64,000 nt of DNA from positions 65,342 to 129,341 of the forward strand of contig CAOKAE010000004.1 of NCBI GenBank assembly GCA_948466335.1, written 5' to 3'. The notes below the pieces were generated by a model. The model saw only the letters and a program-made list of their open reading frames with translations, had not been told where the DNA came from and searched no databases. The stretch comes from an uncultured Coriobacteriia bacterium (GTDB lineage: Bacteria > Actinomycetota > Coriobacteriia > Coriobacteriales > QAMH01). The translations under genes and the position numbers were made by a program. Shown in pieces: positions 429 through 35,329 of this stretch. Within the stretch, counting starts at the first letter, position 1. Every line of letters begins with the position of its first letter.

Positions 429-467
429 AATGAGACAAAAGTTCGTCCGACGAGCATTTGTCTCATT
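429..467. repeat. GAGACAAA palindrome, copy 1
   Basis: Arms AATGAGACAAA and TTTGTCTCATT are perfectly complementary around a 17-base loop. The element lies between two convergent genes, where it could act as a terminator in both directions. It belongs to the dispersed family also seen at 5852, 10925, 12230, 12285, 21773 and 34529. Confidence 0.85.
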
Positions 468-4320: not shown

Positions 4321-4342
4321 AAAAAAAACGCCCGATAGGGCC
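4321..4342 (-). terminator. Rho-independent terminator of the LuxR gene
   Basis: On the minus strand a GCCC-TATC-GGGC hairpin is followed by G and eight U residues. It begins at the stop codon of the LuxR-type gene. The remaining gap to the MFS gene (to 4099) shows purine-rich tracts but no ORF. Confidence 0.8.
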
Positions 4343-7107
4343 TATTCCGCACCCTGGTTTTCGACATCACCCGCGTTCGAACTTGCTCGATAGGCCTCCG
4401 AGCGCGTGTGCACGCCGAGCTTCGAGTAGATGTTCTTGAGATGGGTCTTGACGGTGTTCTGCGAGACGTTGAACGAAAGGGCAATCTCGGCACGCGTCAT
4501 GCCGGAGTTGAGCCTCTGGAGAATCTCGCGTTCGCGCTCGGTAAGCGAATAGTAGCCCTGCACGGCACCTTCCCGGAAGGCCATCTTGTCCTTGATCTCC
4601 TCTTCCGTATCGAAGAGCAGCAGCACCGACTTGGCATGGTTGCGCACGGCGTAGGAGCTCTTGCGGGAGGTGGCGAGCTGCAGCAGCAGCTCATGCATGC
4701 AGGTACGCCCCTCGAGGAACACGCTCTTGAAGCCGCCGTGCATGGCGAGCTCGACAGAACGGCTCAGCTCGACCATGGCGCGCGTGTCGTGCCCCATCTC
4801 GGCATGATAGGACGCGCAGAGCACGGCGAGCTGCGTGGCGAAGTAGATGCTGCCCGTCTCGTCGATCACCGGACGCTTGCGCTCGAGCAGGTCGAGACAT
4901 TCCTCGCGCCGGCCCTCGTGCCAGAGCATGCGGGCCTTCGAGAACACGCAGCCGATGGAGCGGAACACGTCGGCATCGTCCATGAAGGCATCGATGACGG
5001 CTTCGCAGGAGCGCGCGGCGGACATCTCGTCAAGCTCGGCGGCAAGTGCCGCCTTGAGGGCGTAGGCGCGCATGTCCATGTTGCGCGGCACGCGCTTGCC
5101 CTCCATCGCGTCCACCGTGTCCGCCGCGATCTCGAGGGCAGCGATTCGGTTGCCTCCCACGCGTCGCAGCCGCGCCCGTGCCATCTGCACATCCACGTAC
5201 ATGTCCAGGTTGGTGTCCGTGGAGACACAGGCAAGGGCCTCCTCGAGGCATTCCTGTGCAGCCTCGAGCTCATGGCGTTCGATGAGGATGGAGGCGCGCA
5301 CGGCAAGCAGCGCACCATACAGCGGCGTTCCCTCCTCGCAGAGGGCAAGACCCCGCCTGACGGTCTTCTCCGCCTCCTCGAAGTCACCGATGTAGAAGTG
5401 ATGCTGGGCAAGCAAGTTGAGGTCGAAGAGCTGGTAGAACGGCGTGTCGCAGTGTTCGGCGAGCGAATAGGCCTTCAAATACATGTCGCGGCCCTCGCGC
5501 ACGCGTCCCAGACGCTCGAGATTCTCGCCGGCCATGTGATTGAGCAGGCAGTTGAACGCAAGGGGAAGCGTCGCCTCCTCGTCCAGAAGCGGCTGGATGA
5601 TTTCGAGCGAGCGGGCGCTGTCGCCTTCGAGTGCCACGCACAGCGCATCGGCGAAGCGATAGGGCTTGTCGCTTGCGGCATCACCTTCGATCAGGCGCGC
5701 CTGATCGAGCCACCACCGCGCCTGTTCCACATCACCCGCCGATATGCAACTCCACACGGCGACCCATGCCAAATAGGGATCTTCCAGGAAGTCCATGGCG
5801 TCCCGTGAAAGGAGGTAGCCGTAAAGTGACAGACCTTCCTGTGACCGGGCGAATGAGACAAATTGGTCAGACACATTTGTCTCATTCGCCCGGTCGGGGC
5901 GCCTCAGGCCCGTCGCGCCCTCGACGCTGCCCTCGAGGTAGAACGGGTCCGTTCCCATGGCAAGGTACTTGCCGTGACGGAGCATGTCATTGTGCTCGCG
6001 ATACCAGTTGCTCGCCCTCATGGCGAGCTTCTGAAGCCATGATAGCTCCCGCGATAGCAGCAAATCGCGCAGGTACGCGTGCAACTGCGGTGCGAGCTCC
6101 CAGGTGTTGGGCTCGGGCGTGGCGGCCACGAAGAGGTTCTTGCGCTCCATGTCCGCGAACCGCGCCGCCGAACCTTTCGTCTCCATGAGCAAGTCGCAAA
6201 GCTCGGCGTTGGCCGTGTCCGTAAGCGACGCGCAGAGCAGGAGCTCCATGTCCGCTTCGGACACGCGCCCCACGAGCTCTCGCTCGAAGAAGCGCCTGCA
6301 GCATGCGCGCAGGACCTCCGATGCCGGCTTGGCGGCCGTCTGGCGGTCGAGCGCATAGCGGACGAAGGAAAGGCCCAGGGGCGTCTGCGCCAGGTCATAG
6401 GAACCGATGGCCTCGATGTCGGCAGCCGTGAGGCCAAGCTGCTCTCTCAGCAGCGCCAGGCGCCGCTCGTCCCAACGTGTGTCCCGCGTGCCGAATTCGA
6501 GCACCTCGCACTCGAGGGCGAGGTCGGACAGGACGGAGGGGATGTACGTGCCCGCGACAATAAGGCGCACGTTATCCGCGATGTATCGATTGAAATAGGC
6601 GATCGTCTCGGCAAGCTCAGTCGATGCGGCCTGCTCGTAGCCATCGAGTATGACGACGGCGTGCCCGACATGCTCGAACGCCGCATCGCCGCAGTTGATG
6701 AGGGTGATGGCAAGGGCCTCGGCATCCGACGGGTCCGCAAGGGATGGGACAACGTCGGAAAAGCGCTCGTCAAACGCGGAGAACGCCTCCAGCAGGCCCC
6801 GCATGAAGCGCAGAGGGGACGCGTCGTTGGCATCGAGGCTCACCCAGAACACGACATCGTCCTCGCGCCGCGCGAGCTCGTCGTACCACTGGGATAGCAG
6901 GGCCGTCTTGCCCGTGCCGGCCGAAGACGCGACGAGGCAGATGTCCCACGCGTCCAGGTCCATGACCAGGGGCGTGATGCGCTCCTCCGGGACCAGGGCG
7001 TATTTGCCCTTCATCCGGGGAGGCTGGAACTTCTTCCTCAGAAACGGGAGGTCACGTCCATGCTCAGCATGCCATGCCGCCTGACCCTGGGACTTCATCT
7101 CGTCCAT
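4342..7107 (-). CDS. MalT-like LuxR-family ATP-dependent regulator with a palindrome-encoded insert
   Basis: This 921-residue regulator has an N-terminal NTPase domain (Walker A SSAGTGKTALL near residue 65, Walker B VVILDGY near 155), a long helical TPR-like middle, and a C-terminal LuxR helix-turn-helix (LTEREREILQRLNSGMTRAE, then VSQNTVKTHLKNIYSKLGV). This is the MalT/LAL layout, in which ligand and ATP drive oligomerisation and promoter activation. ATG 7107 follows GAGGGG; an upstream in-frame ATG at 7155 is weaker. Residues 408-418, NETNVSDQFVS, are encoded by a complete copy of the dispersed palindromic repeat, with no loss of frame. Targets may include the neighbouring MFS or molybdoenzyme pair A, but that is inference from proximity. 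Confidence 0.88.
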   Translation of the reverse strand: MDEMKSQGQAAWHAEHGRDLPFLRKKFQPPRMKGKYALVPEERITPLVMDLDAWDICLVASSAGTGKTALLSQWYDELARREDDVVFWVSLDANDASPLRFMRGLLEAFSAFDERFSDVVPSLADPSDAEALAITLINCGDAAFEHVGHAVVILDGYEQAASTELAETIAYFNRYIADNVRLIVAGTYIPSVLSDLALECEVLEFGTRDTRWDERRLALLREQLGLTAADIEAIGSYDLAQTPLGLSFVRYALDRQTAAKPASEVLRACCRRFFERELVGRVSEADMELLLCASLTDTANAELCDLLMETKGSAARFADMERKNLFVAATPEPNTWELAPQLHAYLRDLLLSRELSWLQKLAMRASNWYREHNDMLRHGKYLAMGTDPFYLEGSVEGATGLRRPDRANETNVSDQFVSFARSQEGLSLYGYLLSRDAMDFLEDPYLAWVAVWSCISAGDVEQARWWLDQARLIEGDAASDKPYRFADALCVALEGDSARSLEIIQPLLDEEATLPLAFNCLLNHMAGENLERLGRVREGRDMYLKAYSLAEHCDTPFYQLFDLNLLAQHHFYIGDFEEAEKTVRRGLALCEEGTPLYGALLAVRASILIERHELEAAQECLEEALACVSTDTNLDMYVDVQMARARLRRVGGNRIAALEIAADTVDAMEGKRVPRNMDMRAYALKAALAAELDEMSAARSCEAVIDAFMDDADVFRSIGCVFSKARMLWHEGRREECLDLLERKRPVIDETGSIYFATQLAVLCASYHAEMGHDTRAMVELSRSVELAMHGGFKSVFLEGRTCMHELLLQLATSRKSSYAVRNHAKSVLLLFDTEEEIKDKMAFREGAVQGYYSLTEREREILQRLNSGMTRAEIALSFNVSQNTVKTHLKNIYSKLGVHTRSEAYRASSNAGDVENQGAE
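5843..5894. repeat. GAGACAAA palindrome inside the LuxR coding sequence, copy 2
   Basis: The core at 5852-5886 is the 35-bp element seen elsewhere. Here the stem is extended on both sides by GACCGGGCG/CGCCCGGTC, so the arms total 21 paired bases. It lies inside the LuxR gene and is translated as NETNVSDQFVS followed by F, in the same frame as the copy inside iorA. Confidence 0.9.
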
Positions 7108-7306
7108 CGGAACCCCTCGATCTTCCGCGTTGACCTGGCGGCGCATAGGCCACATGGCCGCAGTCCACGCACGTGCCCGTGCCGGCGTCTATGGTGCCGT
7201 CGCATGCGGGGCACCGAAACGCCCGTCCGGAGCGCGTCATCTTGAACGTCCGGTCAAACTTGCCGCATCCGTTGCAGCCCGGCCCCTTGCACGGAAAGCA
7301 GTTCAT
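7064..7306 (-). CDS. Small zinc-ribbon protein
   Basis: An 80-residue frame with CKGPGCNGCG, then CPACDGTID and CVDCGHVAYAPPGQ. The paired CxxC motifs indicate a zinc ribbon, with an additional cysteine-rich head. The last 44 bases overlap the start of the downstream LuxR gene in another frame, so the two may be translationally coupled. The C-terminal tail after the ribbon is low-complexity and may simply reflect read-through into LuxR. No partner or substrate can be named. Similar tiny zinc-ribbon genes stand beside other MFS or molybdoenzyme genes in this window (14717, 44355). Confidence 0.55.
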   Translation of the reverse strand: MNCFPCKGPGCNGCGKFDRTFKMTRSGRAFRCPACDGTIDAGTGTCVDCGHVAYAPPGQRGRSRGSDGRDEVPGSGGMAC

Positions 7307-10920: not shown

Positions 10921-10961
10921 GCAAAATGAGACAAATACCCTGTGCACTTGTCTCATTTTGC
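10921..10961. repeat. GAGACAAA palindrome upstream of ackA, copy 3
   Basis: GCAAAATGAGACAA and TTGTCTCATTTTGC pair perfectly over 14 bases around ATACCCTGTGCAC. The loop is close to that of copy 6 at 21773. A lone half-site, ATGTCTCATT, follows at 10963. It lies in the 263-base divergent gap between molybdoenzyme A and ackA, which must also hold both promoters. Confidence 0.85.
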
Positions 10962-12229: not shown

Positions 12230-12264
12230 AATGAGACAAATGTGTCTGACCAATTTGTCTCATT
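12230..12264. repeat. GAGACAAA palindrome, copy 4
   Basis: A 35-bp core with loop GTGTCTGACC, identical in type to the copies inside LuxR and iorA. It begins two bases after the ackA stop codon and could serve as its terminator. Confidence 0.88.
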
Positions 12265-12284: not shown

Positions 12285-12319
12285 AATGAGACAGATGTGT
12301 CTGACCAGTTTGTCTCATT
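12285..12319. repeat. GAGACAAA palindrome, copy 5
   Basis: A second 35-bp core in the same orientation only 20 bases after copy 4. It differs at two positions, and the change in the left arm (GACAGAT) is near-compensated by ACCAGTTT in the right arm. A run of T follows. Tandem placement suggests local duplication or repeated insertion. Confidence 0.88.
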
Positions 12320-14635: not shown

Positions 14636-14655
14636 ACGCCAAGAGCGCGCAACAA

Positions 14656-14731
14656 AGGGACGGTCCTAACGTTTCGGCATACCGACACGCTAGGACCGTC
14701 CCTGGCAATCCGTCCGTTAGGGCCGTCCCCT
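14656..14731. repeat. GGGACGGTCCTAACG repeat cluster
   Basis: AGGGACGGTCCTAACG at 14656 is answered by CGCTAGGACCGTCCCT at 14688-14703. A third, inverted partial copy (GTCCGTTAGGGCCGTCCCC) runs from 14711. The same family occurs as a perfect palindrome at 21452-21498. The third copy overlaps the 3' end of the small zinc-ribbon gene and supplies its stop codon. Confidence 0.8.
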
Positions 14732-21415: not shown

Positions 21416-21451
21416 CCCGGCACATACCACCCATCGACAGCAGCAGCAAGG

Positions 21452-21498
21452 GGGACGGTCCTAACGTGATGCTACGAACGTCACGTTAGGACCGTCCC
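21452..21498. repeat. GGGACGGTCCTAACG palindrome
   Basis: Eighteen-base perfect arms (GGGACGGTCCTAACGTGA and its complement) around an 11-base loop, 36 bases after the TetR stop codon. It matches the cluster at 14656-14731 and is followed by CTTTGTC. It could terminate the TetR transcript. Confidence 0.88.
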
Positions 21499-21584
21499 TT
21501 TGTCGCATCAGATTTTTCTTGAGTATGCACTCTTCGAGTCATAGAATATATTTAGGTCAGGTTAATAGAAGGATGGTGATCACC

Positions 21585-21772: not shown

Positions 21773-21806
21773 AATGAGACAAATACCCTGTGTATTTGTC
21801 TCATTT
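21773..21806. repeat. GAGACAAA palindrome, copy 6
   Basis: AAATGAGACAAATA and TATTTGTCTCATTT pair around a minimal CCCTG loop, followed by a run of T. It has the CCCTGTG loop type of copy 3. It would make a good terminator for the small acidic gene. Confidence 0.9.
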
Positions 21807-31135: not shown

Positions 31136-31179
31136 TTCATCTCTCGTACTTTCACGTGTCTTGTGCTGCTGACCCGCGG

Positions 31180-31216
31180 AATAAGACAAAAGGTGCCAGG
31201 CGCCTTTTGTCTGGTT
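31180..31216. repeat. GACAAA palindrome, divergent subtype (copy II)
   Basis: AGACAAAAGGTGCC and GGCGCCTTTTGTCT pair with a short loop between convergent pknB and the ModE-like gene. Sequence outside the arms (ATA before, GGTT after) matches the reverse complement of the element at 2750-2785. Confidence 0.75.
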
Positions 31217-33400: not shown

Positions 33401-35329
33401 ATGCCGGTCAAACTGCTCATGGGAAACGAGGCCCTGGGGCTTGGCGCCATACACGCGGGCGTCAACTTCGTGAGCGGGTATCCCGGTACGCCCTCGACCG
33501 AAGTGCTCGAGGCCGTTGCCAAGCATAACGACGGTTCCATCCACGTTGAGTGGTCCACCAACGAGAAAGCCGCCCTCGAGGCGGCGGCGGGTGCGGCCTA
33601 TGCCGGTGCCCGCGCTCTGGTCACGATGAAGCAGGTGGGCCTCAACGTCGCGAGCGACCCGCTCATGACGCTCTCGTACATCGGCGTCGAGGGCGGTCTC
33701 GTCATCGTCGTGGCCGACGACCCCGGCCCCATCTCAAGCCAGACCGAGCAGGACACGCGCAACTTCGCACAGTTCGCCAAGGTACCCCTCTTCGACCCGG
33801 CAAGTCCCGGCGAGGCCTACGCCATGATCCAGGACGCCTTCGAGCTCTCCGAGCGCCACCACACGCCCGTCATCGTGCGTCCCACCACGCGCGTGAGCCA
33901 TGCCTGCGGCACCGTCAAGACGCGCGGCGGCGTGGCCGATTGCGGCGCGGCATTCCAAAACCCCACACTCGACGACGATGACGCGTCCTGGGAGCGCCAC
34001 GTGCCCAGTGGCTTTACGAAGGACACCCAGCGCTGGGTCGTGTTCCCGCGCACGAGCTACCTCAACCACGGCAAGGTCGAGAAGCGCGCGGCGGCCATCG
34101 CCGAAGAGCTCTCCTTCGGCTATCGTCCCAACCGCATTGAGATGAGCGGCATGGGCCATGCAGAGGCCACGTGTGCGTTCGCGGAACGTGGCGACAAGCG
34201 CTTCGAGCTTGGCATCGCCTGCGGCGGCATCTCATACCACTACGTGATGGAGGCCCTCGAGATGTGCGGGCTCGAACTGCCCGTGCTCAAGATCGGTACC
34301 CCCTATCCCTTCCCCGCCAAGCTCGCAACCGAGTTCCTGGAGGCCGTCGACGAGGTGCTGTGCGTCGAGGAGCTTGACCCCATCATCGAGCGCGAACTCA
34401 ACTTCCTCTGCGGCTTCGAGTTCCTGGCAAACACCGTCCACGGCAAGCTCGACGGTTACTTCGGCTATGCCGGAGAGCAGAGCGTCGAGGCCATCTGCGA
34501 CGTGCTCGCAGATGTCGCTGACCTGCACAATGAGACAAATGTGTCTGACCAAATTGTCTCATTACCCAAACCCGAGCTGCCGCCGCGCCCGCCGGTGCTG
34601 TGCGCGGGCTGCCCCCATCGCGCGAGCTTCTACGCCGTCAAGCGCGCCGTGGGCAAGCGCAAGGCCATCTTCTGCGGTGACATCGGCTGCTATACGCTCG
34701 GCAACGCCGCGCCGCTCGACATGGTCGACACCTGCCTGTGCATGGGCGGCGGCATCACCGTGGCCCAGGGCATCGAGACCGTCGATCCGGACACGCTCGC
34801 GTTTGGCTTCGTGGGCGACTCGACCTTCTTCGCCAGCGGCATCACCGGCGTCGTCAACGCCGTCTACAACCAGCACGACATGATCGTGTGCATACTCGAC
34901 AACTCGACGACGGCCATGACCGGTCAGCAGCCGCATCCGGGCACCGGCCGCACGATGATGGGCACCGAGGTGCCGCCACTGAGCATCCCGCGCATCCTCG
35001 AAGCCCTCGGCGTGGATTGCCAGATCGTCGACCCACTCGACTTCGAGGGCGCGGTGCAAGCCGTGCGCGATGCCATCGACAAGACGGGCGTGCGCGCCAT
35101 CATCTTCAAGTCTCCCTGCATCTACCTCGAGCCGCCCGCGCATCCTGCCGTCAAGCTCGACCTTGACGCGTGCATCGACTGCCGCGCGTGCATCAAGCAG
35201 CTCGGCTGCCCGGCCCTCGTGGTCGAAGACGGGCACGTGGCCGTGGACGAATCGCTGTGCTATGGCTGCGAGCTGTGCTGCAAGATCTGCCCCACGGACG
35301 CGTTGCGGGAAGGGGGATCCGATGAGTGA
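33401..35329 (+). CDS. iorA: Indolepyruvate:ferredoxin oxidoreductase, alpha subunit, with palindrome-encoded insert
   Basis: A 642-residue IorA, which oxidatively decarboxylates aryl pyruvates to aryl-CoA with reduction of ferredoxin. The N-terminal half has GNEALGLGAIHAGVNFVSGYPG, the central part GIACGGISYHYV; the TPP region has CAGCPHRASFY, GDIGCYTLG and CMGGGITVAQG; the C-terminus has two 4Fe-4S motifs (CIDCRACIKQLGC, CYGCELCCKICP). Residues 377-387, NETNVSDQIVS, come from a complete palindromic repeat between the two halves, in frame. GAGGGAG precedes ATG 33401. The stop overlaps iorB by eight bases. Confidence 0.95.
   Translation: MPVKLLMGNEALGLGAIHAGVNFVSGYPGTPSTEVLEAVAKHNDGSIHVEWSTNEKAALEAAAGAAYAGARALVTMKQVGLNVASDPLMTLSYIGVEGGLVIVVADDPGPISSQTEQDTRNFAQFAKVPLFDPASPGEAYAMIQDAFELSERHHTPVIVRPTTRVSHACGTVKTRGGVADCGAAFQNPTLDDDDASWERHVPSGFTKDTQRWVVFPRTSYLNHGKVEKRAAAIAEELSFGYRPNRIEMSGMGHAEATCAFAERGDKRFELGIACGGISYHYVMEALEMCGLELPVLKIGTPYPFPAKLATEFLEAVDEVLCVEELDPIIERELNFLCGFEFLANTVHGKLDGYFGYAGEQSVEAICDVLADVADLHNETNVSDQIVSLPKPELPPRPPVLCAGCPHRASFYAVKRAVGKRKAIFCGDIGCYTLGNAAPLDMVDTCLCMGGGITVAQGIETVDPDTLAFGFVGDSTFFASGITGVVNAVYNQHDMIVCILDNSTTAMTGQQPHPGTGRTMMGTEVPPLSIPRILEALGVDCQIVDPLDFEGAVQAVRDAIDKTGVRAIIFKSPCIYLEPPAHPAVKLDLDACIDCRACIKQLGCPALVVEDGHVAVDESLCYGCELCCKICPTDALREGGSDE
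34529..34563. repeat. GAGACAAA palindrome inside iorA, copy 7
   Basis: A 35-bp core with the GTGTCTGACC loop, starting exactly at a codon boundary. It is translated NETNVSDQIVS and then L, the same reading as the copy in the LuxR gene at 5852. One arm base differs (CAAATTG), which turns Phe into Ile. Confidence 0.93.

Follow-up and report, generated by a model that had tools for sequence, protein, structure and literature searches.

A translated palindrome in iorA of an uncultured Coriobacteriia bacterium is probably a passenger of a RAYT-linked repeat family whose sites coincide one-way with those of a second family in a sister species

Palindromic repeats that lie within protein-coding genes and are translated are known from Rickettsia as Rickettsia palindromic elements (RPEs), which the translated palindromic insert described here resembles in behaviour only. 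The short dispersed palindromes of REP/RAYT systems, or REPtrons, are often paired and flank the gene of a Y1/HUH transposase, the REP-associated tyrosine transposase or RAYT (Nunvar 2010, PMC2817692; Bertels and Rainey 2011, PMC3116915; Corneloup 2021, PMC8266576), and our elements share these features. The mechanisms of REP dissemination have been called poorly understood, and loop positions are known to matter for cleavage by group 3 RAYT enzymes (Corneloup 2021, PMC8266576). As at the locus reported below, orthologous RAYT loci of related strains can carry different flanking REP classes, an exchange termed 'orthoswitch', after which the old REPs have been proposed to stay and decay (Nunvar 2013, PMC3686654). 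Finally, intragenic GTAG and CGTC REPs that are translated within open reading frames, at proposed linker or loop sites, have been described together with REP ends that give stop codons and with different REPs in roughly one place of Xanthomonas recB (Di Nocera 2013, PMC3733652), all of which have parallels here.

The window analysed here is a 64,000-nt stretch of contig CAOKAE010000004.1 from an uncultured Coriobacteriia bacterium (GCA_948466335.1); we refer to this genome as G000 and to that of its sister species as G002. The features of the window are collected in Table 1. The 35-bp family A palindrome of iorA is offset from the gene start by 1128 bases, a multiple of three, and is read from residue 377. 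The initial annotation had placed its start on a codon boundary, given its translation as NETNVSDQIVS and counted four of the six reading frames of the element as open, and all three statements were confirmed. IorA is intact, with a TIGR03336 score above the cut-off. The insert falls between the POR_N (15-173) and TPP_enzyme_C (427-566) domains, in a stretch that varies in both length and sequence among homologues; these observations support the earlier view of the site as a tolerant inter-domain linker. A search of the PDB returned no IorA relative with coverage of the linker. The peptide is absent from all 80 IorA relatives compared, and no orthologue with the peptide but without the DNA repeat was found among them. 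The element is probably a short mobile palindrome, translated within a flexible linker as a harmless passenger, a case in which a mobile repeat can supply an enzyme with a tolerated extra peptide.

Table 1. Palindromic elements and their host genes within the window (positions count from the first base of the window).
Feature	Position	Strand	Remarks
Diverged A-like palindrome AATGAGACAAAAGTTCGTCCGACGAGCATTTGTCTCATT	429..467	+	
LuxR-family regulator gene, TPR_MalT and GerE domains	4342..7155	-	host of second translated copy
Family A copy in the LuxR-family (MalT-like) regulator gene	5852..5886	-	translated NETNVSDQFVS
Family B copy, centre ACCCTGTGCA	10925..10957	+	follows TGACCTGC
Family A copy, first of pair 55 bp apart	12230..12264	+	
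Family A copy, second of pair	12285..12319	+	single A here in sister
Family C-like hairpin (ACAAAGGGACGGTCCTAACGT...AGGACCGTCCCT)	14649..14707	+	relative of the sister-iorA hairpin; limits approximate
Second family C-like hairpin	21443..21507	+	limits approximate
Family B copy, consensus TGAGACAAATACCCTGTGTATTTGTCTCA	21773..21805	+	
iorA, indolepyruvate:ferredoxin oxidoreductase alpha subunit, 642 aa	33401..35329	+	host gene; TIGR03336, domain matches
Tag-like CTGACCTGCAC	34518..34528	+	same spacing seen beside a subset of single A/B copies
Family A palindrome AATGAGACAAATGTGTCTGACCAAATTGTCTCATT, in frame in iorA	34529..34563	+	translated NETNVSDQIVS; exact sequence

The sister species encodes an IorA that is 96% identical to the present one. 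After the shared GCTGACCTG, its gene contains a 69-bp hairpin, GGTGACAGAGGG...CCTGCTGTCACC, which adds 23 codons in frame and is followed by the shared CCCAAACCC; CTGACCTG, from the tag region of iorA, is retained next to a different hairpin. This hairpin is unrelated to family A and sits at the same base, and its peptide is unrelated as well, an indication that what the linker requires is a suitably long open frame and not NETNVSDQIVS. The stem GGGACGGTCCTAA(C/T)GT is the mark of a third dispersed hairpin family (C), represented by three hairpins in the sequence examined of each genome, two of those of G000 lying in the window. Site re-use is indicated most clearly by these two unrelated hairpins, which occupy a single base position in the two sisters.

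The second translated copy in the window, in the LuxR-family gene, is read from residue 424, and its palindrome is lengthened on either side by GACCGGGCG/CGCCCGGTC. As had been claimed, iorA and LuxR both translate this mobile palindrome in frame, and their peptides are alike save for Ile or Phe (NETNVSDQIVS and NETNVSDQFVS). In the sister, the LuxR gene is split over two contig ends (L202 and L250, contigs C74 and C175 of G002) that flank the A insertion point, and looks as if the palindrome had broken the assembly. Coding copies were tallied over 0.84 Mb of G000, and their host genes are LuxR, iorA, rlmKL and comF. The rlmKL copy, which the sister also carries, is in the opposite orientation and reads NETVWSDTSVS. 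The first copy in comF is read in another phase (MRQFGQTHLSH) and the second, opposite in orientation to those of iorA and LuxR, as NETDWSDTSVS; the comF gene of the sister has a family B copy instead, read as NETNTQGICLI. The comF insert sits in a loop that is variable among homologues and is absent in genome G005. In genome G006, from the same family, the comF loop (L259) contains a different repeated insert, SSSVGIVAPTNKEN twice, which indicates that this loop tolerates insertions. The open reading frames at L111:4539, L116:11900, L162:7721, L116:18516, L118:16964 and L127:1782 were discarded as coding copies, having doubtful frames or lying upstream of the likely true start.

The shared frame of iorA and LuxR had been proposed to reflect more than chance. 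This is unsupported, as rlmKL and comF use another orientation or phase and, with four open readings, two genes agree by chance in about one case in four. Equal use of all open frames, mostly in pseudogenes, had been named as the outcome that would count against a selected frame; within the 0.84 Mb several open readings are indeed used, but in genes that appear intact. Although the coding copies are too few for a formal test of frame bias, they give no reason to suppose selection for the peptide. That NETNVSDQ(I/F)VS is itself selected, for instance as a flexible tag or interaction motif, and hence appears in one frame in two unrelated proteins, is scarcely credible. Two of the four host genes do have one reading in common, and AAT-GAG-ACA is the phase of most coding copies, but the orientation is opposite in rlmKL and comF, the phase differs in the first comF copy, the sister has a family B peptide in ComF and an unrelated one in IorA, and none of the IorA homologues compared that lack the repeat carries NETNVSDQIVS. 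Selection for the peptide was rejected on the varied readings and the different insert of the sister's iorA. The peptide coincidence between iorA and LuxR is ordinary, and the case cautions against inferring function from shared inserted peptides.

Palindromes of the form TGAGACA-N10-30-TGTCTCA occur 111 times genome-wide, compared to 0 for a reversed-pattern control, and most of them belong to family A or family B; the window contains 4 copies of the A type with ≤3 mismatches, and shuffles contain 0. Family A elements (35 bp, centre GTCTGAC) are often paired, 55 bp apart around a linker, while those of family B (33 bp, centre ACCCTGTGTA) have the same arms and form a strong hairpin, of -12.3 kcal/mol when taken as DNA. 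G000 has 70 strict A copies and G002 has 21; G001 and four other genomes of the family have none. When 299 genomes of the order Coriobacteriales were searched with the combined A/B pattern, it was confined to the two sister species, the lone other match (G135) having an unrelated centre. The elements are short imperfect palindromes, dispersed in tens to hundreds of copies that for the most part lie outside genes, and those of family A are found chiefly at gene ends and in intergenic DNA. The tag CTGACC(T/G)G(C/G) is present on a subset of copies. No GTAG was seen beside the copies whose flanks were listed, which keeps the element out of the GTAG-REP class, and a search of Rfam returned no match for it. 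Where gene stops are placed relative to an element, their commonest position is the TGA of the element itself (7 among 59 copies in G000, 14 among 50 in the sister), a variant of the known pattern in which GTAG-REPs supply TAG stop codons (Di Nocera 2013, PMC3733652). At two sites, read from the sequences, the element TGA of the sister stands at the codon where G000 has TAA or TAG and neither A nor B. At 31170-31215 of the window lies a hairpin, TGACCCGCGGAATAAGACAAAAGGTGCCAGGCGCCTTTTGTCTGG, with an A/B-like tag, and the sister has a family B copy here. A fused element, with AATGAGACAAATACCC joined to GAGACAAATACACAGGGTATTTGTCTCATT, is present at L139:1150 of G002 and may be an intermediate in the insertion of one B into another.

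A Y1/HUH transposase gene of G000 is located between two A pairs and adjoins comF (G000:C1:95039-95368, outside the window and on another contig). At the same comF-adjacent locus the sister has a different transposase, between B copies. Both proteins match Y1_Tnp above the cut-off and contain the HFH motif, and the sole NCBIfam match of each is the RAYT model NF047646, with scores of 64.5 and 63.1 bits against a curated cut-off of 80. Both genes terminate on the TGA of an element. The two transposases are 55% identical in protein and 66% in DNA, compared to 91% for the neighbouring comF DNA, and from this difference the sister's gene, RAYT-B, looks imported. The related genome G001 has no A/B copies and no Y1 match. 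A second, weaker Y1_Tnp match is present in both genomes (G000:C1:207993; G002:C3:21029), with no A/B copies nearby. Flanking position and co-occurrence in the two genomes suggest that A is likely mobilised by the RAYT of G000 and B by that of the sister. Since A copies flank a RAYT gene, the iorA element would be an intragenic REP-like element, a kind that is already known. The palindromes might instead be operators or terminators under selection, with a centre that was altered since the binding protein changed, and the position right after stop codons, the strong B hairpin and the conserved arms would agree with this. It is nevertheless distinctly improbable in view of the copies inside coding sequence, the RAYT gene flanked on both sides, the tandem A-linker-A units, the near-identical B copies and the restriction to two species.

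To compare the sites of the two sisters, fuzzy seeds were taken from both genomes and 45 orthologous places were aligned, the A/B pairs coming mostly from regions chosen for being element-rich. Giving the state in G000 first, 10 places are A/A, 12 are B/B (one more is incomplete), six are A/other and six other/B. A in G000 is matched by B in the sister at 10 sites (one more is degenerate), that is, at 10-11 of the 26 comparable A sites, and the reverse was found at 0 sites (10 versus 0, p = 0.002). The coincidence of A and B sites between the sisters is thus one-way. As a control, 199 alignable G000 gene ends without A or B were compared; one has B in the sister, against 10 of the 26 A sites (Fisher p about 7e-10). 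Three more pairs from other regions were A/A, A/A and B/B, with no new swap. Of the 10 informative B/B places, 9 have the copy nearer to the consensus in the sister (p = 0.02), orthologous B copies being near perfect in the sister and mostly decayed in G000. Where A gives way to B at L108:6769 / L129:15203, the CTGACCGGG upstream is retained. Some swap sites (comF, L108:14428) have junctions that do not match a clean exchange from arm to arm, and insertion plus deletion is a further possibility there. In the A/A pair L185:5340 (G002) and L277:7030 (G000), the G002 copy has matching changes in its arms, AACGGGACA...TGTCCCGTT, and the hairpin is kept. Near L137 position 13162 and near L175 position 3300 (G002), A in G000 corresponds to another repeat type in the sister, GTCATTTCGACCGGAG...GAGATTTCTCGAC...GAAATGACA.

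These comparisons suggest that B replaced A in place in the sister lineage, and the near-identity of the B copies against the diversity of the A copies would point to the direction A to B. It might be argued that A and B are independent insertions made after the split at shared hotspots, the same gene-end target, and are not replacements. Many copies do lie at stop codons and would share targets, the element TGA is the commonest stop position in both genomes, and unrelated hairpins occupy some other sites in the two genomes. We regard this as unlikely, however, given how rarely the sister has B at the control gene ends, the ten A/A sites, which imply that many A copies are ancestral, and the locus at which CTGACCGGG is kept and the palindrome changed. 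Swaps by ordinary homologous recombination with B-bearing relatives, in short tracts that included the RAYT-B locus, are a rather improbable source of the pattern. The imported look of RAYT-B would be in keeping with them, but the donors must have borne B at the same positions, which merely shifts the question, and no further B-bearing genome was found among the 299 of the order.

We consider it likely that a RAYT-linked, REP-like palindrome is carried as a translated passenger in the linker and that a site occupied by such a palindrome can subsequently exchange it for another. A copies would have spread chiefly to gene ends and intergenic DNA, where they are now distributed. The few coding insertions that survive would be those in a flexible linker or variable loop, with a net insert that is a multiple of three and an open frame, as relatives show for iorA and comF; for rlmKL and LuxR it is the frame that is shown. 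The varied frames and the unrelated peptide of the sister suggest that the peptide is a passenger without selected function. An occupied site may then switch its occupant, as the family C hairpin after the same CTGACCTG in the sister's iorA and the many A sites that hold B would illustrate. RAYT-B, or the repair of breaks induced by RAYT-B or by the hairpin, would be the likely agent that swaps the hairpin at sites with matching arms. More tentatively, and short of an even chance in our estimation, RAYT/REP systems may in part spread by overwriting hairpins in place: the cognate palindrome of a replaced RAYT allele would convert old sites genome-wide, keeping tag, stop or frame and renewing the consensus repeatedly. 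Paired A/B sites together with different RAYT alleles at one locus amount to a natural experiment on REP spread. The site-by-site exchange between sister species, more interesting than the peptide, is the part worth pursuing.

Compared to described REP/RAYT systems, the elements differ in their tag, CTGACC(T/G)G(C/G) on a subset with no GTAG/GGAG seen, in the arms TGAGACA/TGTCTCA that are common to two families with different centres, and in their host, a member of the Coriobacteriia. Loop-dependent cleavage, as in group 3 RAYTs, would suit families with common arms and different centres. In relation to the intragenic REPs of Di Nocera 2013 (PMC3733652), the stop codon comes from TGA and not TAG, and in iorA the unrelated hairpins of the two sister species stand at exactly the same base. 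The overall pattern fits an orthoswitch in which new repeats would have overwritten old ones in place. It differs from the model of Nunvar 2013 (PMC3686654), in which orthoswitches are thought to arise via mutation of flanking REPs and old REPs decay: here the RAYT itself looks replaced, and the sister has B in the very place of many old A sites, a pattern that suggests in-place replacement.
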